Shown here: piece by piece, positions 7,435 through 45,007 of the stretch
Layout of the letters: every line of letters starts with the position of its first letter
Position numbering within the stretch: the first letter of the stretch is position 1
Source: Halorubrum sp. Hd13
GTDB taxonomy: Archaea > Halobacteriota > Halobacteria > Halobacteriales > Haloferacaceae
Direction: 5' to 3'
Assembly: GCF_002252755.1 (NCBI RefSeq)
Contig: NZ_NHOY01000108.1
Span: 1 to 45,007 of the forward strand
DNA length: 45,007 nucleotides
Position numbers and translations under genes: made by a program
Notes under the pieces: model-generated
Told to the model about the DNA's origin: nothing
The model's input: the letters and a program-made list of their open reading frames with translations, nothing else
The model's database searches: none

Positions 7435-7612
7435 GTGAATCTGAGCCCCCAATGGTGGCTGATGAAGTTATATCATGAAACTAGGGATGTTGATTTGTCA
7501 GCAGCGGAGTTGCTCAGCCGAACTAGGCCTCCGAGAAAGATGAAATTCGATGCTCCTCAAGTCTCAACCGTTCGAATGATCCCCATCAATAGTAGCCTGT
7601 TCCGTCCATAAG
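7435..7612 (+). CDS. Small ORF of unknown function, doubtful
   Basis: A frame opens after the TAG at 7381-7383 and runs to 7612, with a possible GTG start at 7435. It reads [20 protein letters not shown] and then [20 protein letters not shown]. The composition is not random-looking (Trp-Trp, a regular Arg/Lys-rich tail), but it is less acidic than its neighbours and I do not recognise a family. It overlaps the 3' end of the oppositely oriented prpF1 by 27 bp. It may be the broken N-terminus of a lost gene, or no gene at all. Confidence 0.25.
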
Positions 7613-8707: not shown

Positions 8708-8879
8708 AGAACAGGAGCCCCTGCCTGAAATTTCTCTACGGGCGAGGTCAGTAGACTCGGTTCAACGGTCCAATCGATTCCGGGCGGATGGAGTAGTCCG
8801 CAGGGGGTTACGGTGATCTCGGAACAGGCTAGCTGTTTCATCTACAGAAGTGATCTCCTGTGCGCGCTTATCTATTTTA

Positions 8880-8894
8880 CCCCCGAAAAGGGGG
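8880..8894. promoter_or_regulatory. Operator-like palindrome, copy 3, between prpF1 and the flavoprotein gene
   Basis: CCCCC-GAAAA-GGGGG has 5-bp inverted arms and the same CCC-N7-GGG core as the two perfect sites around iclR, but differs at the inner and outer arm positions. It lies in the 298-bp divergent intergenic region, 111 bp before the flavoprotein ATG and 172 bp before the prpF1 ATG. It is the weakest of the four candidate sites. Confidence 0.35.
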
Positions 8895-8972
8895 CTATCG
8901 CCACACCAAGCCGACCAACTGGAGCAGTTTGATTTAACCTAGTAGTTCTGACATACTCTGGCGAGCAAAAGG

Positions 8973-10448: not shown

Positions 10449-10481
10449 ACGAACCGCCGTCGGTCCCGCCGGGAGACACAC

Positions 10482-10490
10482 TTTTATAAA
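10482..10490 (+). promoter_or_regulatory. TATA element before the first M29/NicX-like gene
   Basis: TTTTATAAA is centred about 27 bp before the ATG at 10513, so this gene probably has its own leaderless transcript in addition to any read-through from the flavoprotein gene. It helps to set the start at 10513 rather than at upstream in-frame codons inside the flavoprotein gene. Confidence 0.6.
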
Positions 10491-10512
10491 CACCTATGGA
10501 CTGGTTCGAGGT

Positions 10513-11490
10513 ATGGACTCAGTCCAAGAAATGAAAGGTGCAAGCATCGTTGTCGACACCTGTGCGGGAATCCAGCCGGGCGAGGACGTCCTCGTCGTCT
10601 CCGACTGGGAGGTCGCAGATGTCGCCGAACGCGTCGCCGCCGCCGCAAACGAGCGCGACGCGAACGTCACGATGACAATGATGGATCCCCGCGAGTACGA
10701 CGGTAATGAACCCGAGCCGTCAGTCGCGGCGGCCATGCTCGAAGCGGACGTGATCATCACGCCCGTCCACCGCTCCATCACCCACTCCAGTGCGACAGCC
10801 GAAGCGAAAGAGGCCGGTGCACGAGTGATCAGCATGGTGAAGTTCACCGACGAACAGCTGGTCCACGGGGGCCTCTACGCTGACTACGAGGGAATGCGAC
10901 CGCACTGCGAGGAGATGGCCAAAAAGTTCGGCGAGGCCGACGAAGCCAGGATTACATCCCCGCAAGGGACCGACGTGACAGTCGGCCTCGAGGGACGTGA
11001 CGGCAACGCCCATCCAGGAATCGCCCACGAGTCCGGCGAATTCACGGCGCTCGTCCATATCGAGGCTAACATCTCCCCCGTAGAAGGAACCACGAACGGG
11101 ACGGTCGTTTTCGATGGTGCCATCCCCAATCTCGATATCGGCGTCCTAGAGACACCTGTCACGATGGAGATTGAAGATGGCGCGGTCACCTCCGTCGACG
11201 GCGGCAAGGAGGCGGATCGCATCGCGAATGTCTGGGCGGAACACGACGACCCCGCTGTATACAACATTGCCCAGTTAGCTGTCGGCATGAATCCCGAGTG
11301 TCCCGAGTTCAACGGCTGGTTCTCCAACGATCACGGGCGCTACGGGAACGTCCACTTCGGTATCGGCACGAGCAGCAATCTCGGTGGTACCACCCGCGCA
11401 CCGGTCCACTTCGACGCGATGATGGCCGAGCCGACGCTCGAGCTCGACGGCGAAGTTGTGCTCGAAGACGGCGAGTTCACGTTTTTCTGA
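10513..11490 (+). CDS. M29 aminopeptidase/NicX-like metalloprotein, copy 1
   Basis: The 325-residue protein resembles metallopeptidase family M29 and the homologous 2,5-dihydroxypyridine dioxygenase NicX. The N-terminal Rossmann-like half (residues 10-115, IQPGEDVLVVSDWEVADVAE) is followed by a metal-binding half with GTTNGTVVFDG, VTMEIEDGAVTSVDGG, NVHFGIGTSSNLGG (His281) and VHFDAMM (His299 and Asp301). The last His-x-Asp matches a ligand pair in both families. At the position where M29 enzymes and its paralogue have a ligand Glu (AEFAMG), this copy has Gln254 (NIAQLAVGMNP), so its metal site may differ. The start is fixed by the TATA element at 10482. It could be a ring-cleaving dioxygenase, a hydrolase or a peptidase; sequence alone does not decide. 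Confidence 0.75.
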   Translation: MDSVQEMKGASIVVDTCAGIQPGEDVLVVSDWEVADVAERVAAAANERDANVTMTMMDPREYDGNEPEPSVAAAMLEADVIITPVHRSITHSSATAEAKEAGARVISMVKFTDEQLVHGGLYADYEGMRPHCEEMAKKFGEADEARITSPQGTDVTVGLEGRDGNAHPGIAHESGEFTALVHIEANISPVEGTTNGTVVFDGAIPNLDIGVLETPVTMEIEDGAVTSVDGGKEADRIANVWAEHDDPAVYNIAQLAVGMNPECPEFNGWFSNDHGRYGNVHFGIGTSSNLGGTTRAPVHFDAMMAEPTLELDGEVVLEDGEFTFF

Positions 11491-11538
11491 GCGACAGATG
11501 AACTGGAATCACGGACGACAGTTAACGGCGGGAGAGAC

Positions 11539-12501
11539 ATGAGGCGGGCACTCGTCGATCAGGACTTACAGCCCGATGAGGCACTTAAAGAGAAGGTTGG
11601 CGATCGGATCGAGCTTGATATCGGCGTGGAGTCGACCGAAGAGGCAGTGATTGAGGCACTTGATGGTGTATCTGTACTGTTCACCACGTCGCGGCTACCG
11701 ATATCTCAGCGGGTTCTAGAGACGGCCAACGACCTCGAGGTCGTCGGGAAGATTGGGACCGGCCTCGACAATGTCGATCTCGACGCCGCGGCTGAGTTAG
11801 GAATTGGCGTGGCGTACACACCGGGACTGAACGCGGCCGCGGTAGCTGAGTACACCGTGGGGCTCGCACTTGCGGTGTCACGTGACATCCTCCAGAACGA
11901 CCGCCTTCTGGAGGCCGGCGGGTGGCGCGACGAGACTGAGCTGAGCACCTCGGTCCACGGTAAGACCGTTGGTGTGGTCGGATTTGGCGACATCGGCAGC
12001 CGCGTCGCTGCCTTCTTTTCTGGGCTCACGACGAACGTGCTCACGTATGACCCGTACGTCTTCGAAGAGGACACCGACATCACCGGGGCTGAGCTAACCG
12101 ACTTAGGGGACCTTCTCGAGCGCAGCGACATCGTCACGGTCAACGCGGAGTTGACTGACGAGACGGAGGGGCTGATTGACGCTCCCGAACTGGATCGGAT
12201 GCAAGAGTCAGCGATTTTGGTAAACACCGCCCGAGGATCAGTCGTTTCTGAGTCGGCGCTGATAGACGCGATAGAGACCGACGAAATCGCCGGCGCTGGC
12301 CTCGACGTGTTCGAGACCGAGCCCCTGCCCCAGGACTCTCCATTCCACAAGTTCGACAACGTGATTGCCACGCCCCACGTCGCCGCGACGACCACGGAGA
12401 GCCGAACCCTCAGCATCGACGCGCTGGTCGACAGCGTCTTCGGGATGCTTGACGGGGACGGCGCACCGGAGCGGTACACGGCAGTCGCTCTCGAGTCGTA
12501 G
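11539..12501 (+). CDS. D-isomer-specific 2-hydroxyacid dehydrogenase
   Basis: The 320-residue protein has the D-2-hydroxyacid dehydrogenase architecture. A split catalytic domain surrounds an NAD-binding domain with VGVVGFGDIGSRVAAFF (residues 144-160). Catalytic residues are in place: Arg232 in VNTARGSVV, Glu261 in DVFETEPLP and His280 in ATPHVAA. It reduces a 2-oxoacid or oxidises a D-2-hydroxyacid with NAD(H). It resembles 3-phosphoglycerate dehydrogenase but lacks the C-terminal regulatory domain of the biosynthetic SerA. It follows the M29/NicX-like gene by 48 bp on the same strand and is probably in the same transcript, so a hydroxyacid or ketoacid intermediate in the island's pathway is likely. 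Confidence 0.85.
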   Translation: MRRALVDQDLQPDEALKEKVGDRIELDIGVESTEEAVIEALDGVSVLFTTSRLPISQRVLETANDLEVVGKIGTGLDNVDLDAAAELGIGVAYTPGLNAAAVAEYTVGLALAVSRDILQNDRLLEAGGWRDETELSTSVHGKTVGVVGFGDIGSRVAAFFSGLTTNVLTYDPYVFEEDTDITGAELTDLGDLLERSDIVTVNAELTDETEGLIDAPELDRMQESAILVNTARGSVVSESALIDAIETDEIAGAGLDVFETEPLPQDSPFHKFDNVIATPHVAATTTESRTLSIDALVDSVFGMLDGDGAPERYTAVALES

Positions 12502-30703: not shown

Positions 30704-31576
30704 ATGGCGTACGAGTACACCGGCGACGTCCACGAAGACCTCGTCGAGTCCTATCGAGCAGGCGAATCGTCCCTCCCGAGTGACACCTCGCGGGTCTATC
30801 CTCCCCGCGATTCTCTGCGTGATGAACCACCTCTCCTCAAACAGCTCCTGTTTCCCCGATGCTGGAACGCGACGGAGCTGCTGGACGATCCCGACGAAAC
30901 TCGTGCCCGCCTGACCGAGCTCGGCAGCTGCATACACACGGGTATCACGGCCTATTCGGATCGTGACGCAGACGATTTGACCGCGATCGTCGAACGGACG
31001 CTCGACCGGTTGCCGGCGATTCGACGGACCCTCGAAAAGGATGTCGAGGCCGCGTATAAGGGCGATCCCGCAGCAAAGAGCAACTGTGAGATCATCCGGT
31101 CGTATCCCGGATTCCACGCGATCATGACCCACAGGGTGGCGCACATCCTCTACGAGGAGGACAGCTTCGAGTACGCTCGCGAACTCGCCGAGTACTCGAA
31201 GGTCGAGACGGGCATCGACATCCATCCAGGTGCGGAGATCGGTGAGTATTTTTTCATCGACCACGGGACCGGGGTCGTCATCGGCGAGACAGCGACGGTC
31301 GGCGACTGGGTCCGGATCTACCAGAACGTCACTCTCGGCGCACTCCACTTCGAGGAGGAAGAGGGTGAGGACCACATGCTGGCGAAAGATTATAAGCGTC
31401 ATCCCGACATCGGCGATCACGTCGTCATCGGTGCCGGAAGCAACGTACTCGGGACGATAGAAATCGGCGACCACGTGAGCATCGGTGCGAACGCCTGGGT
31501 GACCGACGACGTCCCGGACGACACGAGCGTGTTCATTTCGGATCACCCCAATCAGGAGCAGAAATCGAACAGGTAG
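30704..31576 (+). CDS. cysE: Serine O-acetyltransferase
   Basis: The start at 30704 (MAYEYTGDVHEDLVESY) is preferred to the in-frame codon at 30656. The 290-residue protein has the long N-terminal helical domain of the EpsC/CysE-type enzymes (to about residue 165), including KDVEAAYKGDPAA and SYPGFHAIMTHRVAHILY. A left-handed beta-helix of hexapeptide repeats follows (IHPGAEIGEYFFIDHGTGVV with His187, IGETATVGDWVRIYQNVTLG, VVIGAGSNVLGTIEIGDHVS). It makes O-acetylserine for cysteine synthesis. The last residues (ISDHPNQEQKSNR) run straight into IS4-type transposase sequence, so the native C-terminal tail may have been replaced; the catalytic core is complete. Confidence 0.9.
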   Translation: MAYEYTGDVHEDLVESYRAGESSLPSDTSRVYPPRDSLRDEPPLLKQLLFPRCWNATELLDDPDETRARLTELGSCIHTGITAYSDRDADDLTAIVERTLDRLPAIRRTLEKDVEAAYKGDPAAKSNCEIIRSYPGFHAIMTHRVAHILYEEDSFEYARELAEYSKVETGIDIHPGAEIGEYFFIDHGTGVVIGETATVGDWVRIYQNVTLGALHFEEEEGEDHMLAKDYKRHPDIGDHVVIGAGSNVLGTIEIGDHVSIGANAWVTDDVPDDTSVFISDHPNQEQKSNR

Positions 31577-32414
31577 TGGCTTCGGAGTTCACGGACAGTA
31601 CGCGACACAACTCGGTTACGAAGCGCCGTCTCGTGTTCAAGACCGGGTCGAGGCTGCAAGGACGGCTCATACCCTTTGATTTGGCGGATTTCGGGCACCG
31701 CCGGTTGGCACGGATCTGCGAGAATGACGGCTACTTCGTCAGCCGACTGAAACAGAACGCAAACCCGGTGATAACAGAGGAACTCCGCGAATACCGTGGC
31801 GACGCCATTCGCTTGGAGGGAAAGCAGATCCACAACGTTGTAGACGATCTCTACCGCACGTGTATCGACGTAGAAGTGGACGTAGAGTTCAAACTGGAAC
31901 CGTACAACGGCACCCGCTCGTTAGATACGAGGCGATTCCGCGTCGTCGGCGTCCGCAACGAGGACGCCGACGAGTATCACCCGTACATCACGAACCTCCC
32001 ACGAGAAGAGCTTCTCCCGTCGGATCTAGCAACCCTGTATCGGTGCCGGTGGGAGGTAGAGCTGCTGTTTCGTGAACTCAAGACGCAATACGAACTAGAT
32101 GAGTTCGACACGGCTGACCCAGCGGTTGTTGAAATTCCAGTGTACGAAGCGTTGCTCTCACTGCTCATAAGCCGTGATTTGCTAGGGTTAGTCACCGAGG
32201 TAGCAGATGATGAGGTCGTCTTCCCACCAGAACGCTGGGCGGTGACCGTCCGGTCGCACGCCCAGATCATTCTCTCGAACTCGGTGCGTTCTTGGGATAC
32301 ACCCCACAGCCACTGCTTAACCGGTTGATCGAAGACGCTCAAAAGATCCATCAGCAACGGCCGATCCTTCGGGAAACGCTCGCTACCGCAACGCAACCGA
32401 GGTGTGTGTCTTAA
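31577..32414 (+). pseudogene. Truncated, frameshifted IS4-family (ISH8-like) transposase
   Basis: An open frame from about 31577 to 32328 has no proper start of its own and reads LVFKTGSRLQGRLIPFDLAD, DGYFVSRLKQNANPVITEEL and LYRCRWEVELLFRELKTQYE. The last contains the Tyr/Arg/Glu signature of IS4 transposases, with the catalytic Glu in the WEVELLFRELK segment. The N-terminal half is missing. Near 32275 the frame shifts, and the natural C-terminus continues in another frame as SLELGAFLGYTPQPLLNRLI and DAQKIHQQRPILRETLATAT to a stop at 32412-32414. The gene is therefore dead. It directly abuts the cysE stop codon. Confidence 0.75.
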
Positions 32415-32692: not shown

Positions 32693-34129
32693 TCAGCTTT
32701 CGTGGTCCGCGAGGACATCACGGATCGATTCGGTGATGATGTTCATACCGACGGTTGCCTGACGCTGCGTCAGCACGAGCGGTGGGAGCAGGCGAAGCAC
32801 GCTTTTGTGACGCCCGGCGTACCAGACAAGAACGCCTCTGTGGTAACACTCGCGTTGGATCGACTCGACGAGTGATTTCGAGGGTTCGCCGTCCACTTCG
32901 AACTCGACGCCGGTGAACTGTCCTTTGCCACGGACGTCGACGACCTCATCGACGTCCTCGGCGAGTTCGCGGAACCGCGATCGGATGTATTCCCCGACGT
33001 CCGTCGCGTGATCGAGGAGGTCGTGCGACTCGATGTATTCGATCGCGCGCGTCCCGCCGACAAATGCGGGGACGTTACCGCGGAACGTACCCACATGACC
33101 GCCCGCCCCCCACGTGTCGTACTGTTCGTGGTACATCATCGCACCGATGGGGAGCCCAGAGCCGCCGATCCCCTTCGCCATCGTCATCGCGTCCGGCGTC
33201 ACACCCCAGTGCTCGGCCGCGAACCACTCGCCGGTGCGACCGAACCCAGTCTGAATCTCATCGAAAATAAGTAACGCGTCGTTGTCGTCCGCGATATCGC
33301 GAAGTCCATTTAGGAATCCCTCGTGCGGAACGACGACGCCACCTTCGCCTTGGATCGGCTCAACCCAGATCCCTGCGGGCGATTCGTGTCCGCCGTACGG
33401 GCTCTCGAATTTTCGTTGTACAGCGTCGAGCGCACGGGCACAGGGGCCGGCTTGACAGCAGTCAGCTGCGGGACAGAACGGCTCCACATCGCCGGTCGGC
33501 CCCGACTCGGTCGGATTCGGGAAGGGGACGTGGACGGCGTCAGCTAACAGTGGACCGTACCCCGTTTTATATGCCTTTCCTGCGGTAAGGCTGAGTGCGC
33601 CGGCCGTCGTACCGTGATACGACCCCTCGAAGGCGAGCAAGCCGTGGCGGCCAGTATTATGTTTGGCGAGCTTGATTGATCCCTCAATCGCGTCGCTGCC
33701 GCTTGGTCCACCGAAAATAATCTTGCTGTTTCCGCCGAGACCGTTGGGTGCGATATCGTTGAGCCGTTCAATAAATTCAATCCGGGCCGTGGTCGGGAAG
33801 TCCACGGTATGGGTGAGCTTCTCGAGTTGGTCTTGGACCCCTTCGAGGACGTATGGGTTAGAGTGCCCGACGTTCAGCACGCCGATTCCAGCAAAGAAGT
33901 CCAAGAACGTGTTTCCGTCGACGTCCCTGATGGTCGCTCCTTTGGCCTCTTCAAGCGCGACCGGTATGCGACGCGGGTATGCGACTGCGTTGCTGTCGAT
34001 CTCCCGCTGTCGCTTCAGTAACCGTTTCGATTCTGGCCCGGGAACCGTCCCCACGTCTGGCTCCATGGAAAAGTGTATTTCGTCGATTGGTGGGCTTGTT
34101 ACCATATTTTGCGAATTTTCCGAGAGCAT
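32693..34129 (-). CDS. Class III (PLP-dependent) aminotransferase, ornithine/GABA/diaminobutyrate type
   Basis: The 478-residue protein has the fold-type I PLP landmarks of class III aminotransferases: [20 protein letters not shown] near the N-terminus, [12 protein letters not shown] for phosphate binding (around residue 141), [26 protein letters not shown] (Asp290) and [14 protein letters not shown] (Lys319, Schiff base). Members transfer the terminal amino group of ornithine, GABA, diaminobutyrate or putrescine, and some are amino-acid racemases. An unusual Cys-rich stretch, [18 protein letters not shown] (residues 218-235), sits before the VEPIQGEGG motif. An Lrp regulator lies upstream on the same strand and an AOR gene diverges beyond it. 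ATG at 34105 is an alternative start. The substrate is not fixed by sequence. Confidence 0.87.
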
Positions 34130-34300
34130 TTATATTTGATGTTTATCCGATTTTTATGACAAAAAACGGATTATATCCATACTTTTGCCAGCTAGCTTGA
34201 ATACCATTCAATAATTCAGATAACCGATACTGGCACGTAGTCCATTGGGTACACTCATATTCAACGTGAACGTTGGCAATACTACACCAAACGCAGTCCG

Positions 34301-34807
34301 TCAGATCGGATTAGCCGATTGCTCTTGGGTGAGCGCTTCGACGAGTGTGTCCTGTTCGAAGTCGTTTATCGGGTGTCGTTCGTTCTTCACCGTCGAAATG
34401 ACGAACTTCGAGCTGGTTCGCTGGATCTGGTCGATAGCCTCGTAAGAGTCAACGACTGACTCAACCATCGCACGGTCCGTAACGTGCCCGATGACGATGA
34501 AGTCCGTATCGCCCATAGTAAAGTACACCTGATTAATACCCTCAACGTTCGCGAGTTTCTCGCCGACAATATCGTGGTACCCCTCGTCGAACTCCGCGTA
34601 GACCTCGCTGATAATCGTGAGCGAGAGTCCCAACTTGGAGAGATCAATGTCAAACAAGTCGTTTTTGATGACTCCCCGTTCCCGTAGTTGGTTAAGTCGA
34701 TAGTGGACTGTTGATTTGGGAATGCTTGTGTATTTGTGTATCTCTCCGGGGCTAGTGGTTCCTTCTGACAACGCCGTTTTGAGAATCTGAATATCCTTTC
34801 GGTCCAT
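34301..34807 (-). CDS. Lrp/AsnC-family transcriptional regulator
   Basis: The start is set at the ATG at 34807 (MDRKDIQILKTALSEG), the usual opening; an upstream in-frame ATG at 34840 adds eleven residues. The 168-residue protein has an N-terminal helix-turn-helix (SPGEIHKYTSIPKSTVHYRL, residues 19-38) and a C-terminal ligand-sensing domain of the RAM type (YHDIVGEKLANVEGINQVYF, GDTDFIVIGHV). Lrp proteins respond to amino acids. It is encoded 171 bp upstream of the aminotransferase and divergent from the AOR gene, so it probably controls one or both. Confidence 0.88.
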   Translation of the reverse strand: MDRKDIQILKTALSEGTTSPGEIHKYTSIPKSTVHYRLNQLRERGVIKNDLFDIDLSKLGLSLTIISEVYAEFDEGYHDIVGEKLANVEGINQVYFTMGDTDFIVIGHVTDRAMVESVVDSYEAIDQIQRTSSKFVISTVKNERHPINDFEQDTLVEALTQEQSANPI

Positions 34808-35092
34808 GGTGAGTAATCCCGTGTTCCCCACTACGTCCACGAGTTTAAATTGTATCGAGTGTCGTCAGTATTAAATCTTGTTTATATGTTGGACTGTATC
34901 TAGGTTTTGGGGGAGATTTGAATCTCGTTTATACGAAACGACGGGATAGAGAGCTGATACCAATGAACACTCTGAGTTGGAGCGCGCCAGCTTCGTTCGA
35001 TAAATACATAAAATATTGACTGGTATCCGATCTAGGCAGTTTCTAGTGGATAGTAAGCAATATTTATTAGCTTACCGAGACATCGAACGAAC

Positions 35093-36778
35093 ATGTTGTG
35101 TAGCCGGGGGCCAATGCTCACCATCGACGTAGACAGTCATGAAACCAGTAAGACTTCGATTGGATCGATTCAAGAGCGGTACGTCGGGGGACGAGGAGTC
35201 GGGACCCGCGTGGCACACGAACGGATCCCGTTTGATGTTGACCCACTCGGTCCCGAGAACCGACTCGTGTTCACCACGGGACCGATGCAGACGTCGAACA
35301 TGAGTTTCACCGGCCGGATGAACTGCACCGGGGTTTCGCCACTGACCGACGGGTTGTTGTCGAGCAACGCGGGTGGCTTCATGTCCCGGAACTTCGCTGA
35401 TACGGGGTACGGCGCCGTCGAACTCACCGGGGCGAGCGAGGAGTTGGTCGCTGTTCACGTCCGCGACGATGGCGTCGAGTTCGAGGAAGTCGATCACCTC
35501 ACCGGCGCGACCGTCCCAGAGACGGTCGAGTATTTTGAATCCCAGCGGGGCATCACGAGCGATCAGACGGCTGTAATAGGTCCTGCGGGCGAGAATAAGG
35601 TGCGATTCGCCTCGATCATGACTTCAGAAGAGCGCGCCTTCGGGCGCGGTGGACTCGGTGCTGTCATGGGCGCGAAGGGAATCAAGGCCGTGACCTTCGG
35701 CGGGGACAGTGCTCCAGAGATTAACATCCCCGCAACTCAAGCGGAGATTCACCGAGAGGCCGCGACTGCGGACGACATCATGAAAGAGCAGGGGACGGTG
35801 GCAGCCATGGATTTGGCAAACGAGGTAAACGGTCTGCCATCTTACTACTTTTCCGAACAGCAGTTCGAGGGCGTCGAGGGCATCAACGGTGCGGCAGTCG
35901 CCGACAAGAAGTACAAGAAAGGGACCTGTTCGGCCTGTGCCTTCGCCTGCAAGTTGCCGACAAAAGATGAGGCGGCCGGTGTCGAGACCGAAGGGCCAGA
36001 GTTCGAAGTCGCGATGGCTTTCGGGTCCAACTCCGGCGTCGATGACATCGTTGAAGTCATGAAGTCTAACGAGCAATGTGACCGCTACGGCATGGACGCC
36101 ATCTCAGCAGGTAACTCGGTAGCGGCCTATCTCGCTGCCGAGGACGAGTTCGGAAACACCGAGCTGATCCACGACACAGTCAAAAAAATCGCTCACCGCG
36201 AAGGAATTGGCGACACACTCGCAGAGGGGATTGACCGCTTCCATGAGGAGATTGGCGTCGAAAACTGGTCAGTCAAGGGAATGGACTTTGCCGCCCACGA
36301 GGGACGGGTCCTCAACGGACAGGGGCTATCATACGCGACCGCGAACCGCGGCGCCGATCATATGTATTCGACGTTCTACTCGGTCGAGTACCCCTTCGTT
36401 GAACCGGATGAGGCGCTCGAACCCGAAGGAACCATCGGGAAATCCGAGACTCTCGTTGACCGCGAGGACCTCATGGCGTTCAACGATAGCGGCGTCATCT
36501 GCAAGTTTTCCCGGAGCTACATGAGTCCCGAGCGCTACGAAGCGCTGTTCGGCGTCGACTATGAGGATCTGCTGGAAGTCGGTTCCAGGACAGTTACATT
36601 AGAACGACACTTCAACAATCAGCGTGGCTTCGACCGCGACGACGACAAGCTGCCGTACGACCTCCCGGACTTCGAGGCCGCACTCGACGAGTATTACGAA
36701 GTGCGTGGCTGGAAAGACGGCCTCGTCCCAGAAGACGCGCTCCCAGAGGAGTACGGGCAGCGTTCCATTGGTGTCTGA
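35093..36778 (+). CDS. aor: Aldehyde:ferredoxin oxidoreductase (tungsten/molybdopterin type)
   Basis: The 561-residue protein has the AOR domain order. The N-terminal pterin-binding domain contains YVGGRGVGTRV, RLVFTTGPMQ and EERAFGRGGLGAVMGAKGIK. The iron-sulfur ligands are CSACAFAC (Cys279, Cys282, Cys286) plus Cys470 in DSGVICKFSR, forming one [4Fe-4S] cluster. Pterin/tungsten motifs include ETEGPEFEVAMAFGSN and CDRYGMDAISAGN. It oxidises aldehydes to acids and passes electrons to ferredoxin. The first ATG (35093) is chosen because a TATA-like element (ATTTATTAG, 35062-35070) lies about 27 bp upstream and the spacing to GGRG suits the family; ATG at 35114 is possible. Its neighbours suggest amino- or polyamine-derived aldehydes as substrates. 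Confidence 0.88.
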   Translation: MLCSRGPMLTIDVDSHETSKTSIGSIQERYVGGRGVGTRVAHERIPFDVDPLGPENRLVFTTGPMQTSNMSFTGRMNCTGVSPLTDGLLSSNAGGFMSRNFADTGYGAVELTGASEELVAVHVRDDGVEFEEVDHLTGATVPETVEYFESQRGITSDQTAVIGPAGENKVRFASIMTSEERAFGRGGLGAVMGAKGIKAVTFGGDSAPEINIPATQAEIHREAATADDIMKEQGTVAAMDLANEVNGLPSYYFSEQQFEGVEGINGAAVADKKYKKGTCSACAFACKLPTKDEAAGVETEGPEFEVAMAFGSNSGVDDIVEVMKSNEQCDRYGMDAISAGNSVAAYLAAEDEFGNTELIHDTVKKIAHREGIGDTLAEGIDRFHEEIGVENWSVKGMDFAAHEGRVLNGQGLSYATANRGADHMYSTFYSVEYPFVEPDEALEPEGTIGKSETLVDREDLMAFNDSGVICKFSRSYMSPERYEALFGVDYEDLLEVGSRTVTLERHFNNQRGFDRDDDKLPYDLPDFEAALDEYYEVRGWKDGLVPEDALPEEYGQRSIGV

Positions 36779-36953
36779 CCGGTATACGAAAGAACAGTAG
36801 CGACACAGACCGTTCGGCTTCGGTCCGTCACTATTGAACCTCGTTCATATAACGAAATAGTATATGATAAAAATACAAATACTGTGCTTGGCAGTAGATA
36901 TTACACGTTCAGTGGGTTATTATGACTGATGAACATGACATGAGCGGAAACAC

Positions 36954-37970
36954 ATGACGAAGAACAGAGACGGCACCCAATTCGAAGAGCAGATGTCCGT
37001 GGATAGGGACGCCGAGATTGAACTCGCGTACACGGGACGTGATACGTTCCTGAAAGGCGACAGCCGAGACGTGACGGATCTGGAGGGGTTTGATGTCGGG
37101 GTCTTGGGAGTGCCCTACGACGGCGCACTGAGCAATCGACCGGGCGCGCGCTACGGGCCGAGAGCGATACGCAGAGCCAGCGCTTGGTGGGCGTACCTCT
37201 CCGAGTACAAGGGCGGCCTCACGAACGTGAATACCCGGGCGCAGGTCGACTTCTCCGATCTCCGCGTGGCGGACTGTGGCGATGTCCCGGTCTTACCGAT
37301 GGACCGAGAGCGCACCGCGGAGCGTATCGAATCCCGTGTTTCATCGATCGCCGAGCAGGCGTTTCCGGTGATACTCGGCGGCGATCACTACTGTACTTAC
37401 CCGTCGTTCCTCGGTGTCGCGCGTACGATCGACGCGGACTCGGTCGGACTCGTTCAGATCGACGCCCACAGCGACACCGTCACTGAGAGCCCGGTGTTCG
37501 GGGAGCACTATCACGGGTCAAGCACACGCCTGATCGCCGAGTCGGAGTGGTGCGAGTACGACGCGATCAGTCAGGTCGGCATTCGGGGATACGAGGGCCC
37601 CGACTTCTTCGAGTTCGTCGACGACGTCGGCCTCTCTGTTTTTACCCAACGCGAGGTCCGCGAGCGCGGCGTCGCCGATGTCGTCACTGACGCCATCGAG
37701 GCGGCCGCGGCGGAAACAGACGCCGTCTACCTCACCTTCGATATCGACTCAGTCGACCCGAGCGTCGCGCCGGGGACCGGAACGCCGGAACCCGACGGGC
37801 TTTCGGCGCATCAGGCGCTAAAGATAATGGAAATCGCGGGCACGCACCCGGATATTGCGGCCGTTGATCTCATGGAGGTCTCGCCGGAGTATGACCCGAC
37901 AATGTCGACTCAAATCCTCGCGGCCAGCGCACTCGTGACCCTCCTCGAACGGCAGTTCGCGGAGAAGTAG
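36954..37970 (+). CDS. Agmatinase/ureohydrolase family (guanidino-group hydrolase)
   Basis: The 338-residue protein carries the binuclear manganese site of ureohydrolases: VILGGDHYCTYP (His145), QIDAHSDT (Asp170, His172, Asp174) and TFDIDSVDPS (Asp263, Asp265), with VPYDGALSNRPGARYGPRAI near the start. Such enzymes release urea from agmatine, guanidinobutyrate, guanidinopropionate, arginine or formiminoglutamate. The layout is nearest to agmatinase and its guanidino-acid relatives. It lies 175 bp downstream of the AOR gene on the same strand and converges on potA of a polyamine-type ABC transporter, 21 bp away. Agmatine to putrescine plus urea is therefore the leading idea, but the side-chain specificity cannot be read here. 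Confidence 0.87.
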   Translation: MTKNRDGTQFEEQMSVDRDAEIELAYTGRDTFLKGDSRDVTDLEGFDVGVLGVPYDGALSNRPGARYGPRAIRRASAWWAYLSEYKGGLTNVNTRAQVDFSDLRVADCGDVPVLPMDRERTAERIESRVSSIAEQAFPVILGGDHYCTYPSFLGVARTIDADSVGLVQIDAHSDTVTESPVFGEHYHGSSTRLIAESEWCEYDAISQVGIRGYEGPDFFEFVDDVGLSVFTQREVRERGVADVVTDAIEAAAAETDAVYLTFDIDSVDPSVAPGTGTPEPDGLSAHQALKIMEIAGTHPDIAAVDLMEVSPEYDPTMSTQILAASALVTLLERQFAEK

Positions 37971-37991
37971 GTGAGAGGATACGAGACCGGA

Positions 37992-39146
37992 TCAGTCGAG
38001 GATAATTCTACACGCCTCTGTCGGGAAGCTGACGGTTACCTCATCGTCCTCTGCGAAGTTTGTTGTTTCCTCGTTGATCTGGCGCTCGACCTCGAAGTGT
38101 TTGCCGTTGACGTCGATCCGATACAGCTTCAGCGATCCTTTGTAAATCGTGTCGAGGATGGTCCCAGTCCATTCGTTGGCGTATCCGCTCGAGTCATCGT
38201 ACGGTTTGAGGACAACTTCCTCCGGTCGAACCGACACGGCGGCGGACCGCCCACTGTCGTCGGCACTATGCGGGATTGAGACTGTGAACCGACCGTCATC
38301 GGTCTGAAGTGACATTCCGTCGTTGGAGATAGTTCCCTCGAAGAGGTTCGTTTCCCCGATGAAGGTGGCGACAAACTGTGTCTCCGGCGACGTGTACAGT
38401 TCGTCAACCGGCCCGATCTGCTCAATCTGTCCGTCGTTCATCACGGCGATACGGTCGGACATCGTTAGCGCCTCTTCCTGGTCGTGGGTGACGTAGATGA
38501 ACGTGATCCCGAGTTCCTCTTGGATATCTTTGAGCTCGACCTGCATGTGCTGTCTAAGCTTCCGGTCGAGGCTCGCGAGCGGTTCGTCGAGGAGGAGCAC
38601 GTCGGGTTCACGGACGACGGCTCGGGCCATCGCGACGCGCTGTTTCTGTCCGCCCGACAGCTCTGTTGCTTGGCGGTCTTCGTACCCCGAGAGTTCGACC
38701 ATCTCCAGAGCGTCTGCGATCCTGGTCTCACGTTCGTCCTCGGGGACACCGTCCATCTCTAGTCCGAACGAGATGTTCTCACCGACAGTCATGTGCGGAA
38801 ACAGGGCCCACTCCTGGAACACCATCGACGTGTCGCGGCTGTTCGCGGACTGCGCGGTTACGCGCTTCCCACTGATGGCCACGTCTCCATCAGTCGGTGT
38901 CTCGAGCCCGCTGATCATCCGCAACGTCGTGGACTTTCCACACCCTGACGGCCCGAGTAGCGTCAGGAACTCGCCCGATTCAATCTTGAGGTTCACGCCG
39001 TCGACGGCGACGAGGTCCCCGAACTCCTTCCGGAGGTTCTGCAAGTGGACCGATCCTCGCTTGAAGTCGCCCTCCGATCCGGTTCTATCGGATTCCGTCC
39101 GTTTAGTCCCCGAATCCTGCGTGTTGTTGCTCTCGCTCACCGTCAT
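37992..39146 (-). CDS. potA: ABC transporter ATP-binding protein, spermidine/putrescine (PotA) type
   Basis: The 384-residue protein has an ABC ATPase domain with Walker A LLGPSGCGKST (residues 63-73), the Q-loop in MVFQEWALFPHMT, the signature TELSGGQKQRVAMARA (residues 161-176), Walker B LLLLDEPLASLD, and the switch region VTHDQEEALTMSDRI. A C-terminal TOBE-type domain follows from about residue 280 (VSVRPEEVVLKP). This is the PotA arrangement used for polyamine or related uptake. It is downstream of potD on the same strand with 35 bp between, and probably co-transcribed. The N-terminal 28 residues are polar and look like a disordered extension. Confidence 0.88.
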   Translation of the reverse strand: MTVSESNNTQDSGTKRTESDRTGSEGDFKRGSVHLQNLRKEFGDLVAVDGVNLKIESGEFLTLLGPSGCGKSTTLRMISGLETPTDGDVAISGKRVTAQSANSRDTSMVFQEWALFPHMTVGENISFGLEMDGVPEDERETRIADALEMVELSGYEDRQATELSGGQKQRVAMARAVVREPDVLLLDEPLASLDRKLRQHMQVELKDIQEELGITFIYVTHDQEEALTMSDRIAVMNDGQIEQIGPVDELYTSPETQFVATFIGETNLFEGTISNDGMSLQTDDGRFTVSIPHSADDSGRSAAVSVRPEEVVLKPYDDSSGYANEWTGTILDTIYKGSLKLYRIDVNGKHFEVERQINEETTNFAEDDEVTVSFPTEACRIILD

Positions 39147-39181
39147 TTGTAGATATCCATTTCTCTCATACGGTTACACGT

Positions 39182-40342
39182 CTACATATCACTTTGCGAT
39201 TTCGCCCGTTCCCACATGTTCGTCCAGTCCTCGGTCATATCGGAGAACTCGTAGGGCGTGGTCTGTGCGGCGATCTCTTCGGCGGCGTCGAATCCGTCCT
39301 CGGAGAACATCAGCGCAGACTGCTCCTCGGCGCTGAACATGTCGAAGGACTCGGTGTTGACCGGGGGACTCTTGGCGGCCGGCTCCCAAGAGATGCTCTT
39401 CTGTCCTTCGGGGCTGACAACGGTCCTCATGAACTCTTTGGCCAGTTCTCGGTCGGTCGGATTTTTGACCATACACATCCCCTCGGTCCACTGCATCCCG
39501 CCCTCCTCGGGCAGCACGACGCTGACCCAGTCGGCGCCGCCGGCTCGCAGCTCGGACATCGTGAAGTTCCCGACAGGAGACATGACGATGTCGTTCTGGT
39601 TGAACGCCTGCCGGATGGCGCTGGTCCCGCTGTAGATGGCCTCGAACTGGTTGAACATCTGGACGAGGTGGTCCTCGATGTCGCTCAGCTCCTCGTCGCT
39701 CTGTTCGAAGGGGTCGTACCCGAGCGTTAATGCGATCTTCGGGATGTTCCAGGTCGGCCAGTCCATGATGCCCATCTTGCCGGAGTACTGGCCGTCGGGG
39801 CCACCCGTCCAGAGGACGTCGTAGGACTGGTAGTGGTCCGCTTCGACCTCGTCAGTGTTGACCGTCAGCGTGTCCCAGCCCCACCGCGTCGGGAGCGCGT
39901 ACATCTCGTCATCGTACTCGAACGACGAGAACGGCCACTGGAACCGCGGGATGAAGTTACTCATCGCCGAGAAGTCGTCCGAGTTGAGGGGTTCGATCGT
40001 CCCCGCCTCCGCGTGGCGCTGGGCCCACGTGTTGTTGACCGTCAGGAGGTCGTAGTCCTCCGTCCCGCCGCTCTGGAGGTTGTTCAGCGCCTCGGAGTCG
40101 CTGGAGACGAGGCTGATGCTGACCGTCGCGTCGTTCTCCTCTTCGAACTTGTCAACGATGGTGTCGGTCCCGTATCCTTCCCAAGTCAGGACGTTGATCT
40201 CCGTGGCGCTCCCGCCGCTGGAGAAACACCCCGCCAGCGCCGCCGTCCCGACCGCGCCTGACGCCTGCACAAAGCGACGCCGGGAAAATCCTGTGTGACC
40301 GTGTCCTGCCGTGCGTTTCGTTTTCGGTTTCTCGTCCGTCAT
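39182..40342 (-). CDS. potD: PotD-type extracellular substrate-binding lipoprotein
   Basis: The start at 40342 (MTDEKPKTKRTAGHGH) is chosen because a TATA-like stretch lies about 33 bp upstream; the frame is open to 40423. The 386-residue protein has a Tat signal (FSRRRFVQASGAVGTAALAG) ending in the lipobox Cys, then a periplasmic-binding fold of the PotD/PotF type (INVLTWEGYGTDTIVDKFEE, YDLLTVNNTWAQRHAEAGTI, RWGWDTLTVNTDEV). It captures polyamines or a similar solute for the PotABC complex. It is divergent from potBC, an uncommon split arrangement of the four genes. Confidence 0.87.
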   Translation of the reverse strand: MTDEKPKTKRTAGHGHTGFSRRRFVQASGAVGTAALAGCFSSGGSATEINVLTWEGYGTDTIVDKFEEENDATVSISLVSSDSEALNNLQSGGTEDYDLLTVNNTWAQRHAEAGTIEPLNSDDFSAMSNFIPRFQWPFSSFEYDDEMYALPTRWGWDTLTVNTDEVEADHYQSYDVLWTGGPDGQYSGKMGIMDWPTWNIPKIALTLGYDPFEQSDEELSDIEDHLVQMFNQFEAIYSGTSAIRQAFNQNDIVMSPVGNFTMSELRAGGADWVSVVLPEEGGMQWTEGMCMVKNPTDRELAKEFMRTVVSPEGQKSISWEPAAKSPPVNTESFDMFSAEEQSALMFSEDGFDAAEEIAAQTTPYEFSDMTEDWTNMWERAKSQSDM

Positions 40343-40585
40343 ATCTGTTCCATGGAGGCATGGAGAGCCAGGGGTTATAGTATTTCCGCATATAGTACAT
40401 ATTTGCTTGGAATTGTACGACACTATCCGATAGGATTGGAGATTATTAATTCATATCTCACACCGGTTTCCTTTCGACCTCTTTCCGTCCCGGTATCGCG
40501 AACCGTTCTGGCCGACTCGCGGCGACGTTCATCGACGGTTAGGAGCGGTGTACGAAACTTCTGAACGAGGACGGGGTGGACCGGA

Positions 40586-40596
40586 ACATATATCGG
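40586..40596 (+). promoter_or_regulatory. TATA element of potBC
   Basis: ACATATATCGG lies about 29 bp before the potB ATG at 40620, consistent with a leaderless transcript. The 277-bp divergent region between potD and potB presumably holds shared regulatory sites, but no clear palindrome was recognised. Confidence 0.5.
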
Positions 40597-40619
40597 GTGG
40601 AGTTCAGTAAGGTGTGGCC

Positions 40620-41516
40620 ATGGTAGAGATCACAGACAAAATAAATAGTAAAGTTCGGACGATAACTAACCGGATACCTATCTCGGACACGTTCCTCGTC
40701 ACCGGCGGTCCGATACTGCTATTGGAGATGCTGCTTTTCCTCGGACCGATCTTGATCATGTTCTACATCGCCGTGATTCAGATGGAGAACTTACAGCTGG
40801 TTCACGAGCTCTCGCTGCAGAACTACGTCGAGGTGTTCTCGGGGGCCGCGAACATAGAGGCGATCAAGAACACGGTGTTCCTATCCATGCTGACGACATT
40901 CACCGCGGCGGTCGTCGCGTACCCCTTCGCCTACTACATCGCGCGACACGGCGGCCGGTTCAAAAATCAGCTCTTGATCCTGGTGATGATCCCGTTCTGG
41001 ACCAACTACATCGTTCGGGTGTACGGCTGGCAGATCATCCTCGGGTCGGAGGGGATCATCAACTCGCTGTTAATCTGGTTAAACGTCATCAACGAGCCGA
41101 TCGGCTGGCTGTTGAACACAAACTTCTCTATCTGGCTCGGGTTGACCTACCTCTGGCTGCCGTTTATGATCCTCCCACTGTACGCCAGCCTAGAGAAGAT
41201 AGACGAGACTCTGATCGAGGCCGCCTACGACCTCGGCGCGACGAGACGAGCCGTGTTCAAGCGGGTTATCCTCCCGCTCTCGATCCCGGGGCTCGTCGGC
41301 GGGACGATCTTCGTGTTCATCTTCAGCATGGGCGCGTACATCGTGCCGGCGATGATCGGCGGCGGGCAGCTGTTCGTCGGAACCAGAATCGCACACGAGT
41401 TCGGCATCGGCGGGGACTGGGCGCAGGGCGCGGCCCTCGGGAGCGTCCTGATGATCGTCGTCGCCGGGACGCTGTGGTCACTGATGGGCTACACTAACAT
41501 GGAGGAGATGTTCTAA
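40620..41516 (+). CDS. potB: ABC transporter permease, PotB type
   Basis: The start at the ATG at 40620 (MVEITDKINSKVRTI) is preferred over a GTG at 40614. The 298-residue membrane protein has six hydrophobic segments. The inner-membrane EAA loop that contacts the ATPase is visible as IEAAYDLGATRRAVFKRVIL, followed by PLSIPGLVGGTIFVFIFSMG. It matches the first permease of spermidine/putrescine-type importers. The potC ATG follows two nucleotides after its stop. Confidence 0.9.
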   Translation: MVEITDKINSKVRTITNRIPISDTFLVTGGPILLLEMLLFLGPILIMFYIAVIQMENLQLVHELSLQNYVEVFSGAANIEAIKNTVFLSMLTTFTAAVVAYPFAYYIARHGGRFKNQLLILVMIPFWTNYIVRVYGWQIILGSEGIINSLLIWLNVINEPIGWLLNTNFSIWLGLTYLWLPFMILPLYASLEKIDETLIEAAYDLGATRRAVFKRVILPLSIPGLVGGTIFVFIFSMGAYIVPAMIGGGQLFVGTRIAHEFGIGGDWAQGAALGSVLMIVVAGTLWSLMGYTNMEEMF

Positions 41517-41518
41517 CG

Positions 41519-42370
41519 ATGAGTCACGACACCGAACCCACCGCCCAGCGGGCGGGCGAGACCCCGAACCAGTCGCGATTGGACCGGTATCTGAGCGTCG
41601 GCGCGACCGTCGCCGAGCGCTACTGGCTCCCCGTCTGGGCGGTGCTCGTCTTCGCGTTCCTCTTTGCGCCCATCGTCATCCTGATCCTGTTCTCCTTCGA
41701 GCAGGGGACGTTCTCCTCGCTCCCCTGGAACGGGTTCACGACCCAGTGGTACTCGGAGATGCTGAGCGACAACCGGCTCATACAGTCCACGTTCAACAGC
41801 CTCCAAGTCGCGGCGAACGTCACCGTCGCGGCGACAATACTCGGGACGCTCGGCGCTATCGCACTGGTCCGCGGCCAGTTCCGTCGGAAGGGCCTATTCC
41901 GCGCGATCATCATCGCGCCGATGACGATCCCCGGACTCATCCTCGGGATCGCCCTGCTCATCTGGTTCAACGTCATCGGGATGAACACCTCGCTGCTGAC
42001 CGTGATGCTCGGGCAGCTCGTCTTCGTCACCCCGTTCGTCGTCATCACGGTGAGCGCCCGGCTCAGAGGGTTCGATCCGGAGCTGGAGGAGGCGGCCCGC
42101 GACCTCGGGGCCTCCAAGTGGCAGACCTACCGGCGCGTCACGCTCCCGCTGTTGATGCCCGGCATCGTGAGCGGGGCGCTGTTCGCGTTCACTCTCTCGT
42201 TCGACGACTTCCTTATCGCGTTCTTCACCAGCGGTCCGAACAACACGCTGCCGATCTACATCTGGTCGAAGATCCAGCACGGCACGGACCCGGTCATCAA
42301 CGCGATCAGCGCGATGGTGCTGCTGTTCAGCATCACGCTCATCGTCATCAGCCAACTGATCAGCCGGTAG
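41519..42370 (+). CDS. potC: ABC transporter permease, PotC type
   Basis: The 283-residue membrane protein has six hydrophobic segments after a polar N-terminal extension of about 25 residues. The EAA loop reads LEEAARDLGASKWQTYRRVT, followed by LPLLMPGIVSGALFAFTLSF and DDFLIAFFTSGP, the usual PotC C-terminal region. It pairs with potB, from which it is separated by two nucleotides, so the two are translationally coupled. With PotA and PotD encoded on the other strand, the importer is complete. Confidence 0.9.
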   Translation: MSHDTEPTAQRAGETPNQSRLDRYLSVGATVAERYWLPVWAVLVFAFLFAPIVILILFSFEQGTFSSLPWNGFTTQWYSEMLSDNRLIQSTFNSLQVAANVTVAATILGTLGAIALVRGQFRRKGLFRAIIIAPMTIPGLILGIALLIWFNVIGMNTSLLTVMLGQLVFVTPFVVITVSARLRGFDPELEEAARDLGASKWQTYRRVTLPLLMPGIVSGALFAFTLSFDDFLIAFFTSGPNNTLPIYIWSKIQHGTDPVINAISAMVLLFSITLIVISQLISR

Positions 42371-42422
42371 CGACGCCGGGTTTCCTCGCTCCGGGACCCG
42401 GACGCCCGTCCTCCGCCGTAAT

Positions 42423-43058
42423 CTACCGGCCGTTCTGGCAGATCTCAACGAAGTTTTCGATGGTTTTGGCGGCCGTACACTCGGAGAAGTCGTGGCCGCC
42501 GCGCGACCAGTCACTCGGGTTCCCCTCGACGCGCTCGGTAAACTCGGGATGATACTGGACGGTCCAGACCGGCTCGGTCTCATGACGCGTACAGAAGTGC
42601 TCGCTGTAGTCGGTCGTCGCGATCGTACGAAGGTCGCGACCGAGTTCGGTCACGAGATCGGAGTGGAGCACCGGGACGATCGGCTCGACGCCCGAGAGCA
42701 CGGGGTCGTCGCCCGTGACCGTCATCTCCACGAACGTCGCTCGGCGTCGATCCTCTCGAACCTCGCCGCCGAGCGCGTAGTTGACAAGCTGGTGGCCGAA
42801 ACAAATCCCCAGCAGCGGCACCGACGCGTCGATACACTCTCGAACGAGTCGTTGCTGGCGATCGAACACCTCATTATCAGTATCGTACACGCTGGCTGTG
42901 CTCCCGCTGATAATGATCCCGTCGTATTGAGTCGGATCGTCGACGTCCGGGCCCTCCAAGGCGACGCGATACTCGCTGTCGCCGGCGATCCGATCGATCT
43001 CGGGACCGAGGTACCGGTATTCGGGCTGGACTTCGTCGTCCAGAACGAGTACAGTCAT
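42423..43058 (-). CDS. Class I glutamine amidotransferase-like protein
   Basis: The start at 43058 (MTVLVLDDEVQPEYRYLG) is chosen; an ATG two codons upstream is possible. The 211-residue protein has the class I GATase triad elements: LLGICFGHQLVNYALGG (nucleophile Cys86), VQYHPEFTERVEG (catalytic His with the following Glu), and IIISGSTASVYD near the oxyanion strand. It resembles the free amidotransferase domain of GMP synthase. Proteins of this type near polyamine genes may hydrolyse gamma-glutamyl amides, as the unrelated PuuD does, but no gamma-glutamyl ligase is visible here, so that is speculation. It lies 52 bp beyond potC on the opposite strand. Confidence 0.82.
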   Translation of the reverse strand: MTVLVLDDEVQPEYRYLGPEIDRIAGDSEYRVALEGPDVDDPTQYDGIIISGSTASVYDTDNEVFDRQQRLVRECIDASVPLLGICFGHQLVNYALGGEVREDRRRATFVEMTVTGDDPVLSGVEPIVPVLHSDLVTELGRDLRTIATTDYSEHFCTRHETEPVWTVQYHPEFTERVEGNPSDWSRGGHDFSECTAAKTIENFVEICQNGR

Positions 43059-43092
43059 TATCAATATTTGCGAACCCGGTACAATAAATCAT

Positions 43093-43138
43093 TTCACCTG
43101 TCGTTCTGCGTCCGATTCACCTGTCGTTCTGCGTCCGA
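43093..43138. repeat. Perfect 23-bp tandem duplication
   Basis: The 23-bp unit at 43093-43115 (begins TTCACCTGTCGTTCTGC, ends GTCCGA) is repeated exactly at 43116-43138. It lies in the 295-bp divergent region between the amidotransferase and the second aminotransferase, 35 bp from the amidotransferase start. The rest of this region (43139-43353) holds no gene, only a TATA-like AATAATAAACAA near 43330. Confidence 0.9.
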
Positions 43139-43353
43139 ACCCGGACCGGACGCGTCGCGCGGCTCCAGACGCGTACTCGGCGATCGACAGCGCAGACTCG
43201 GCCGCGTCGTCGAGGACAGGCCCGCTTGTACATTCTTTCGACCGACGCCGGCGACGCGGCGGTTAATTCGGACCAAATCTAAATTTTTCGCGCATTTACA
43301 GACTGTGTCTTTCCAAATATTGTAAATCGGAATAATAAACAAACGATTAAGTA

Positions 43354-44718
43354 ATGGGGCACCAACCTCTCAACATGGACCTGTGGGACGACTACGAGGC
43401 AACGTACCGCGAACGGACCGGGGGCAGCCAGGCGGCGTTCGAACGGCTGCAGGAGGACGTTCCCGCCGGCGTCGCAAGCACGTATCGGGCGTGGAATCCG
43501 TATCCGTTCGTCGTGGACCGCGCAGAGGGAGCGTACCTCTACGACGTCGACGGGAACAAATATCTCGACTTCGATATGAACAACGGAGCGGCGATGGTTG
43601 GCCACGCTCACCCGACGGTGACTGAAGCCGCGAGCGACCAGTTGCACGACGGGACGCTGTTCACTCACCCGCACGAGTTGCTCGGAGAGGCGGCCAGCGC
43701 GATCAAGGATCGCTGGTCGATGATGGACAAGGTTCGCTTCACCAACAGCGGGACCGAGAGCACGATGCACGCGATGCGGGTCGGACGCGCCTACTCGGGC
43801 CGAGACACGGTCCTGAAGATCGAAGGAGCGTATCACGGCGTCCACGACTACGTACTCATCAGCAAGGCCCCGCCGAAGGGTCAGGTCGGCCATTCCAAGC
43901 GACCGAACAAGGTCGTAGAGAGCGACGGTATCCCGGCGAAAACGGCCGAGACCGTCGAGGTCGCCCCATTCAACGACCTCGACGCGGTCGAGTCGATCCT
44001 CGAGGACCACGTCAACGAGATCGGCGCGCTCATCGTCGAACCGATCGTTCTGGCGAAAGGGGTCACTCAACCGTACGACGACTTCCTGCAGGGGCTTCGG
44101 GAGCTCTGTGACGAGTACGGGATTGTATACATTTTCGATGAGGTCAAGACGGGCGTGAAAGTTGCGCCTGGTGGTGCCGCCGAACACTACGATGTCGAAC
44201 CAGACCTTGTGACGCTCGCTAAGAGCATCGGCGGGAATTTCCCAGTCGGTGCCTTCGGCGGCCGTGAGGAGATCATGTCTGTCATCGAGGACGGGACAGC
44301 CCACTACGGAACCTACAATGGAAACCCGCTCGTCGCACGTGCTGTCGAGACCGTCCTAAACGACGTACTCACCGAGGAGGCCTACGACCACGTCAATCGA
44401 CTAGGACAGCGACTTGCGGACGGGTACGAGGAGATCATGGCTGATAATGGGATCGAGGGACGCGTCGAAAACGTCAACTCAATCGGCATGGTCCTGTTCA
44501 CCGACGAACCGGTCGAGGATTACCGAGATTATTTAGAGCACATCGATGTCGAGTTCCACGAGAACTACTGGTTCGGGATGCTCAACCAGGGTGTTCTCCC
44601 GCATCCCCATGACGCGTCCCAGCAGTGGACTATTTCGGTCCAACACGAGGACGAACACATCGATCAGCATCTCGAAGCCTTCGAGAACATCGCTCCACGA
44701 CTTGCCGACGAGCGGTAG
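43354..44718 (+). CDS. Class III aminotransferase, glutamate-1-semialdehyde aminomutase-like
   Basis: The 454-residue protein has the landmarks of class III PLP enzymes closest to glutamate-1-semialdehyde 2,1-aminomutase: AYLYDVDGNKYLDFDMNNGA, RFTNSGTESTMHAMRVGRAY, IEGAYHGVHDYVL, YIFDEVKTGVKVAPGG (Asp262) and VTLAKSIGGNFPVGAFGG (Lys290). The haem-pathway enzyme has a similar motif set, but the location beside polyamine and amidotransferase genes suggests a catabolic transaminase or mutase instead. A TATA-like element about 24 bp upstream supports the first ATG; ATG at 43375 is possible. Its stop codon is only three nucleotides from the end of the convergent IS6 transposase. Confidence 0.85.
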   Translation: MGHQPLNMDLWDDYEATYRERTGGSQAAFERLQEDVPAGVASTYRAWNPYPFVVDRAEGAYLYDVDGNKYLDFDMNNGAAMVGHAHPTVTEAASDQLHDGTLFTHPHELLGEAASAIKDRWSMMDKVRFTNSGTESTMHAMRVGRAYSGRDTVLKIEGAYHGVHDYVLISKAPPKGQVGHSKRPNKVVESDGIPAKTAETVEVAPFNDLDAVESILEDHVNEIGALIVEPIVLAKGVTQPYDDFLQGLRELCDEYGIVYIFDEVKTGVKVAPGGAAEHYDVEPDLVTLAKSIGGNFPVGAFGGREEIMSVIEDGTAHYGTYNGNPLVARAVETVLNDVLTEEAYDHVNRLGQRLADGYEEIMADNGIEGRVENVNSIGMVLFTDEPVEDYRDYLEHIDVEFHENYWFGMLNQGVLPHPHDASQQWTISVQHEDEHIDQHLEAFENIAPRLADER

Positions 44719-44721
44719 TGT

Positions 44722-45007
44722 TTAGATAAGCTGATTCCATGCGAAGGCAAACGCTTGAAGCCAATTTTCAGCGGTATTCGGCTTGACATGGCTGAACGTA
44801 TTTGAGAACTGGTTTGTTCGTCGTTTTACTTCACGAAAGACACGTTCGACGGCATTCCGATTCCCATGTGTAACGTGTTGGAATCGGAGCCCGTGACGAT
44901 GACAGGCCGCCTGTAACCACGGAGCACCATCGACGAGAAAGATTGCGTCGTCGACCTGATGTTTCTCACGCAGTTCTGAGAGAAACATCGAGGAGATCGC
45001 GTTCGTT
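44722..45007 (-). CDS. IS6-family transposase, C-terminal part, cut by the window edge
   Basis: The frame runs leftward from the window end to a TAA at 44722-44724. It reads FLSELREKHQVDDAIFLVDG (second catalytic Asp in FLVDG), APWLQAACHRHGLRFQHVTH, and GNRNAVERVFREVKRRTNQF (catalytic Glu in the VERVFREVKRR helix), ending FSHVKPNTAENWLQAFAFAW. The frame stays open beyond 45007, so the N-terminal half is outside. Unlike the two decayed relatives at 5485-6040 and 29544-30176, this part is intact and may belong to an active element. Its stop is so close to the aminotransferase stop that there is almost no room for a terminal inverted repeat outside that gene. Confidence 0.88.
   Translation of the reverse strand, partial: TNAISSMFLSELREKHQVDDAIFLVDGAPWLQAACHRHGLRFQHVTHGNRNAVERVFREVKRRTNQFSNTFSHVKPNTAENWLQAFAFAWNQLI

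Follow-up and report, generated by a model that had tools for sequence, protein, structure and literature searches.

A haloarchaeal gene cluster with an aldehyde:ferredoxin oxidoreductase-family enzyme: a candidate gamma-glutamyl polyamine catabolic module damaged by an IS

The window, i.e., the whole stretch of 45,007 nucleotides analyzed here (bases 1-45007 of contig C73 from the 3.8 Mb genome of the haloarchaeon Halorubrum sp. Hd13), harbors a gene cluster that probably serves, judging from its gene content, the uptake and breakdown of polyamine-like amines. Several relatives have kept the cluster, which is interrupted by an IS in this genome. The interpretation favored here, which has about an even chance of being right, is that of an IS-damaged haloarchaeal module for polyamine catabolism of the gamma-glutamyl (Puu) type, in which an AOR would take the place of PuuC and a transaminase that of PuuB. 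The original prediction had listed a PotABCD transporter, an agmatinase-family hydrolase, two class III aminotransferases, an AOR, a class I amidotransferase and an Lrp regulator; profile matches recovered each of them, at or close to where it had been placed:

32693..34129, minus strand: AT1, class III aminotransferase (PF00202)
34301..34840, minus strand: Lrp/AsnC-type regulator (PF01037, HTH_24)
35093..36778, plus strand: AOR, aldehyde:ferredoxin oxidoreductase family (PF02730 and PF01314)
36954..37970, plus strand: AGM, ureohydrolase of agmatinase/guanidinobutyrase type (PF00491)
37992..39146, minus strand: PotA-type ABC ATPase (TIGR01187 potA, 360.8 versus a cut-off of 355.6)
39182..40423, minus strand: PotD-like solute-binding protein (SBP_bac_8; weak PotD match)
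40614..41516, plus strand: PotB-type permease
41519..42370, plus strand: PotC-type permease
42423..43064, minus strand: GAT, stand-alone class I GATase (PF00117, PF07722)
43354..44718, plus strand: AT2, class III aminotransferase of GSAM/GntE type (NF041362 GntE, 403 versus 525; hemL below cut-off)
44705..45007: 9-bp target duplication CCGACGAGC (44705-44713) and IS start with transposase, matched on contig C97

The grouping of these genes as a module goes beyond chance, the AGM-PotADBC-GAT-AT2 and Lrp-AOR blocks being kept in Halorientalis salina, which also possesses the closest relative of AGM (93%). H. salina and two further genomes harbor the genes of the window plus a GS-like ligase and a transaminase termed AT1', both of which are missing from the window. 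In H. salina, the order is AGM-PotADBC-GDH-GAT-AT2-GS-AT1'-AOR-Lrp in one unbroken stretch, GDH being a glutamate dehydrogenase. Genomes G080 and G280 exhibit the order AT1', AOR, Lrp, PotA, PotD, PotB, PotC, AT2, GS, GAT, AGM, without GDH, and G251 assembles PotADBC, AT2, a GS2-type ligase, GAT, Lrp, AOR and AGM. The window and H. salina share 82-86% DNA identity in three blocks that are differently ordered; as the AOR is still present, it has stayed in the module through rearrangement. Orthologs of AT2 (72-94%) are found in loci L119, L137, L138, L140, L157 and L158.

The GATase possesses an intact Cys88/His172/Glu174 triad, invariant in 31 orthologs, and its structure, predicted with confidence, displays the class I GATase fold. 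In structure comparison, this fold resembles the glutaminase subunits of GMP synthase no less than gamma-glutamyl peptidase. A role as a biosynthetic glutaminase subunit was considered and rejected: the fold alone is undecisive, the cluster harbors no synthase partner, and the GATase is paired with a GS-like ligase, the two genes lying close together in 17 genomes. The best models for the GS-like protein are type III GS and gamma-glutamylputrescine synthetase, with scores under the cut-off for both (NF045547 included). Aligned with the GlnA of this genome, the GS-like proteins keep the metal, ATP and glutamate residues and lack the DGSS aspartate (D50), the ammonia-site tyrosine (Y179) and the flap glutamate (E327), as numbered by motif. 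The same three positions are substituted in GlnA-2 of Haloferax mediterranei, likewise a haloarchaeal GS paralog, which was identified as a glutamate-putrescine ligase by enzyme assay and with a mutant, putrescine serving as N or C source (PMC8394153). The two systems differ in that an E. coli-like route is proposed for H. mediterranei, with no AOR described there, and in that its glnA-2 sits between MATE and ABC transporter genes (PMC8394153). A GS-like ligase lacking the ammonia-site residues, together with a stand-alone GATase, amounts to a signature of gamma-glutamylation, with the ligase expected to act first and the hydrolase last. Their pairing favors gamma-glutamylated intermediates over free 4-aminobutanal, and the GATase is proposed to be a gamma-glutamyl hydrolase in a PuuD-like role.

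In the proposed pathway, putrescine, or agmatine that the ureohydrolase would convert to putrescine, would be taken up through PotABCD, and the GS-like ligase would add glutamate to the amine. A class III aminotransferase would then turn the free amine end into an aldehyde, the AOR would oxidize the aldehyde to the acid, electrons passing most likely to ferredoxin, and the GATase would remove glutamate to yield GABA. AT2 might act on GABA as a later transaminase, a step that we put with a question mark. As in the E. coli PuuABCD system, the components would include a GS-like ligase (in the relatives and on C97), a putative GATase-type hydrolase, a class III transaminase and a polyamine-type uptake system. 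In contrast, the module comprises a transaminase and an AOR instead of the PuuB oxidase and the PuuC ALDH, plus a ureohydrolase and an Lrp regulator. The annotated ORFs of the module include class III transaminases but no PuuB-type FAD oxidase, and there is no PuuC-type NAD(P)-dependent ALDH within 13 kb of the window GATase, where the AOR is located. The candidate counterpart of PuuA lies outside the window: the relatives have it, and C97 carries a truncated ortholog and an intact paralog (58%). The candidate counterpart of PuuD is the window GATase, on the basis of its PF07722 match, fold and invariant triad. Gene content, motifs, conserved linkage, the missing ammonia-site residues of the ligase and the break by the IS can be read directly from the sequence; the substrate, the order of these steps, tungsten as the AOR metal and ferredoxin as its acceptor are inferred.

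Two of the assignments, polyamine uptake and agmatinase, carry a qualification. PotA passes the TIGR01187 subfamily cut-off and the permeases are of the PotB and PotC types, but the PotD-like protein is only distantly related to known polyamine binders (47 bits versus the 582 cut-off of the polyamine-binder model), so that polyamine uptake is deduced from PotA, PotB and PotC. Reading a substrate from the structure of the PotD-like protein was dropped, the AlphaFold model having a pLDDT of 35. AGM belongs to the ureohydrolase family and possesses all six metal ligands, invariant in the 18 ureohydrolases aligned, but its score against the agmatinase equivalog TIGR01230 (165.7 bits) is under the 174.3 cut-off, and the assignment is kept at the family level. 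This narrow miss would suit a different, distinctly improbable route, in which a transaminase converts agmatine to 4-guanidinobutanal, the AOR oxidizes it to 4-guanidinobutyrate and the ureohydrolase, acting as a guanidinobutyrase, releases GABA and urea. The PDB matches of AGM, with 3-guanidinopropionase, proclavaminate amidinohydrolase and guanidinobutyrase beside agmatinases, are consistent with it, as is the best model of AT2, guanitoxin-synthesis GntE, although below cut-off. However, PDB matches cannot fix the specificity of the ureohydrolase, and the ligase-hydrolase pair is left unexplained by such a route.

4-Aminobutanal cyclizes readily, a property that weighs against the route envisaged at first, from agmatine through putrescine to 4-aminobutanal, with the free aminoaldehyde oxidized by the AOR and the GATase serving another purpose. 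This direct route needs no ligase, yet the GATase is regularly found beside a GS-like ligase in the module family of the window, and their pairing in 17 genomes speaks against an amidotransferase left without a role. The direct route is unlikely here: the place of the AOR in the cluster stands, while the exact path via free 4-aminobutanal is less favored than the gamma-glutamyl one. In support of the direct route, AT1' and a ureohydrolase are adjacent in genomes G276 and G030, with an AOR (64-66%) ~4 kb off and neither GS nor GAT in that region, and such pairs also exist in Halorussus salinisoli and Halogranum amylolyticum. The pairs of G276 and G030, located near an AOR without ligase or GATase, suggest that genomes other than the present one may use the direct route.

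The AOR exhibits the AFOR_N and AFOR_C domains, the four Fe-S cysteines, the pterin motifs and the catalytic Glu/His of its family. Its motifs (the CSACAFAC cysteines, ETEGPEFE, D-x2-G-x-D, RGADH and D-x-G-x2-C) are intact, and are invariant or almost so across an alignment of 35 AORs. Among its PDB matches are Haloferax volcanii WOR83 (9q1t) and 1aor (5e-75). The window AOR falls in the same fold family as Pyrococcus AOR and WOR83 and has their Fe-S cysteines as well as their pterin and catalytic motifs, but is shorter (561 aa), belongs to a separate haloarchaeal subfamily and is linked to transaminases. A search for the tungstate binder WtpA returned no match; four proteins match PF12849 (PBP_like_2), a profile that is not ligand-specific. 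The Lrp regulator travels with the AOR, its orthologs (58-86%) adjoining an AOR in loci L119, L120, L122 and L124.

Of 25 haloarchaeal GATase neighborhoods, 9 contain an AOR of this family at a distance of up to 13 kb and 7 others a NAD-type ALDH, and none of the 25 has both (Fisher p=0.008, uncorrected for relatedness, the 13-kb distance having been set after looking and AOR-less genomes read to only about 10 kb). In 10 genomes, no more than 4 kb separate AT1' from an AOR. That the AOR oxidizes a transaminase-made aldehyde, as first predicted, is supported in so far as it recurs beside a class III transaminase, at the position in which one would expect an ALDH. In a tree built by a quick method, the AORs of the GAT clusters occupy at least three places, which argues for repeated recruitment; the idea of one AOR clade per pathway, contradicted by this tree, was abandoned. 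Several AORs per haloarchaeon are common, and close AORs exist in many contexts without amine genes. Together with the lack of a single clade of cluster AORs, these contexts would fit an AOR that, with its own Lrp, acts on unrelated aldehydes while the module relies on a distant ALDH. The chance of this being so is slim, since linkage of the AOR to GAT, Pot and AT1' recurs in several families and in rearranged orders, and the presence of an AOR near a GATase is expected by chance in only ~1% of genomes, according to a rough copy-number estimate.

The same AOR family is encountered in clusters of the ectoine type. Locus L117 (contig C7:50500-70300) carries an AOR (9015-10682, 74%), an AT1 paralog (7505-8932, 60%) and a DoeA-like gene (10909-12090) whose best model is the ectoine hydrolase DoeA (453 bits versus a 613 cut-off), with a glutamate dehydrogenase nearby; it is probably an ectoine degradation cluster. 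By comparison of positions, 18 haloarchaeal genomes, this one included, have a DoeA-like gene and an AOR separated by less than 0.5 kb, and a diaminobutyrate-type transaminase adjoins both in such clusters. In the bacterial Doe pathway, the transaminase product, aspartate semialdehyde, is oxidized by the NAD-dependent DoeC. Doe clusters thus resemble the present module in that the product of a class III transaminase is oxidized by the next enzyme, with an AOR of the same family there in haloarchaea; they differ in their substrate and hydrolases, and in the NAD-dependent DoeC of bacteria. Beside a class III transaminase in polyamine and Doe-like clusters, the AOR would replace an ALDH on two occasions, which suggests a general transaminase-coupled role. 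A broader proposal, which we advance tentatively and rate as somewhat more likely wrong than right, is that class III transaminases of amine and ectoine degradation have this haloarchaeal subfamily as their standard partner, which would oxidize their aldehydes instead of NAD-dependent ALDHs and supply ferredoxin with low-potential electrons in archaea that are largely aerobic.

The open-access papers searched report no AOR in archaeal polyamine or ectoine breakdown and assign no physiological substrate to this AOR subfamily. Linkage to transaminases in two pathways provides candidates that can be assayed: gamma-glutamyl-4-aminobutanal or 4-aminobutanal, and aspartate semialdehyde. If true, the gamma-glutamyl reading would give aerobic archaea ferredoxin-level electrons from amine oxidation, and would fill the oxidation step missing after the proven archaeal glutamate-putrescine ligase.

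In the present genome, the IS sits in the final codons of AT2 and separates it from the ligase gene. In the window, CCGACGAGC precedes the IS terminal repeat GGTAGTGTTTAGATAAG; at its start (L153:1-36), contig C97 presents the matching repeat and a second copy of these 9 bp, followed by the end of the convergent GS gene. The AT2/GS junction across the IS agrees with the uninterrupted site of H. salina. Of the GS ortholog, C97 holds a C-terminal fragment with ~105 residues (81%), and the intact GS-like paralog is located 0.6 kb beyond it. No AT1' ortholog is present in this genome. AT1 duplicates a gene of contig C50 (84.5% nucleotide identity over 1435 bp), and its best NCBIfam models, of the acetylornithine, diaminobutyrate and GABA types, are all below cut-off. 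Being such a duplicate and absent from the H. salina module, AT1 is not ancestral to the cluster and was rejected as the module's own transaminase, in disagreement with the original prediction; yet AT1, Lrp, AOR and GAT occur together in genome G046. AT1 may substitute for AT1', which has been lost. With GS truncated, AT1' lost and AT1 a duplicate, the pathway may run on AT1 and the ligase paralog of C97, which would keep it going in this genome, or it may be in decay. Against the gamma-glutamyl reading stand this truncated ligase and missing AT1', the ambiguity of the GATase fold, the lack of one common clade for the cluster AORs, the remote PotD-like protein, the lack of WtpA, and the AT1'-ureohydrolase pairs found elsewhere with no ligase or hydrolase nearby.

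The region of the module is mobile and rearranged. IS transposases flank the module (window 31576-32328 and 44722-45007), and another is located on C97 (L153:2470-2823).

Among the GAT/GS2 clusters, that of L158 encodes a 780-aa protein in which an APH-type phosphotransferase is fused to a class III aminotransferase (L158:11994-14354), as identified by domain scan. Similar fusions in the GAT/GS2 clusters of L140, L159 and L181 are recognized by length and match, the domains being scanned in L158. The fusion hints at a hydroxyamine substrate in those clusters. AT1'-AOR, with Lrp, adjoins ABC transporters of the branched-chain amino-acid type in L192 (G319) and L134 (G099), and the pair may thus serve further substrates. 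A separate catabolic island at window 6354-28682, identified by eye, harbors an IclR-type regulator, two PrpF-like proteins, a ThDP enzyme, an ALDH, several SDRs, and TctABC-type and DASS-type transporters, and is probably dedicated to organic acid use.
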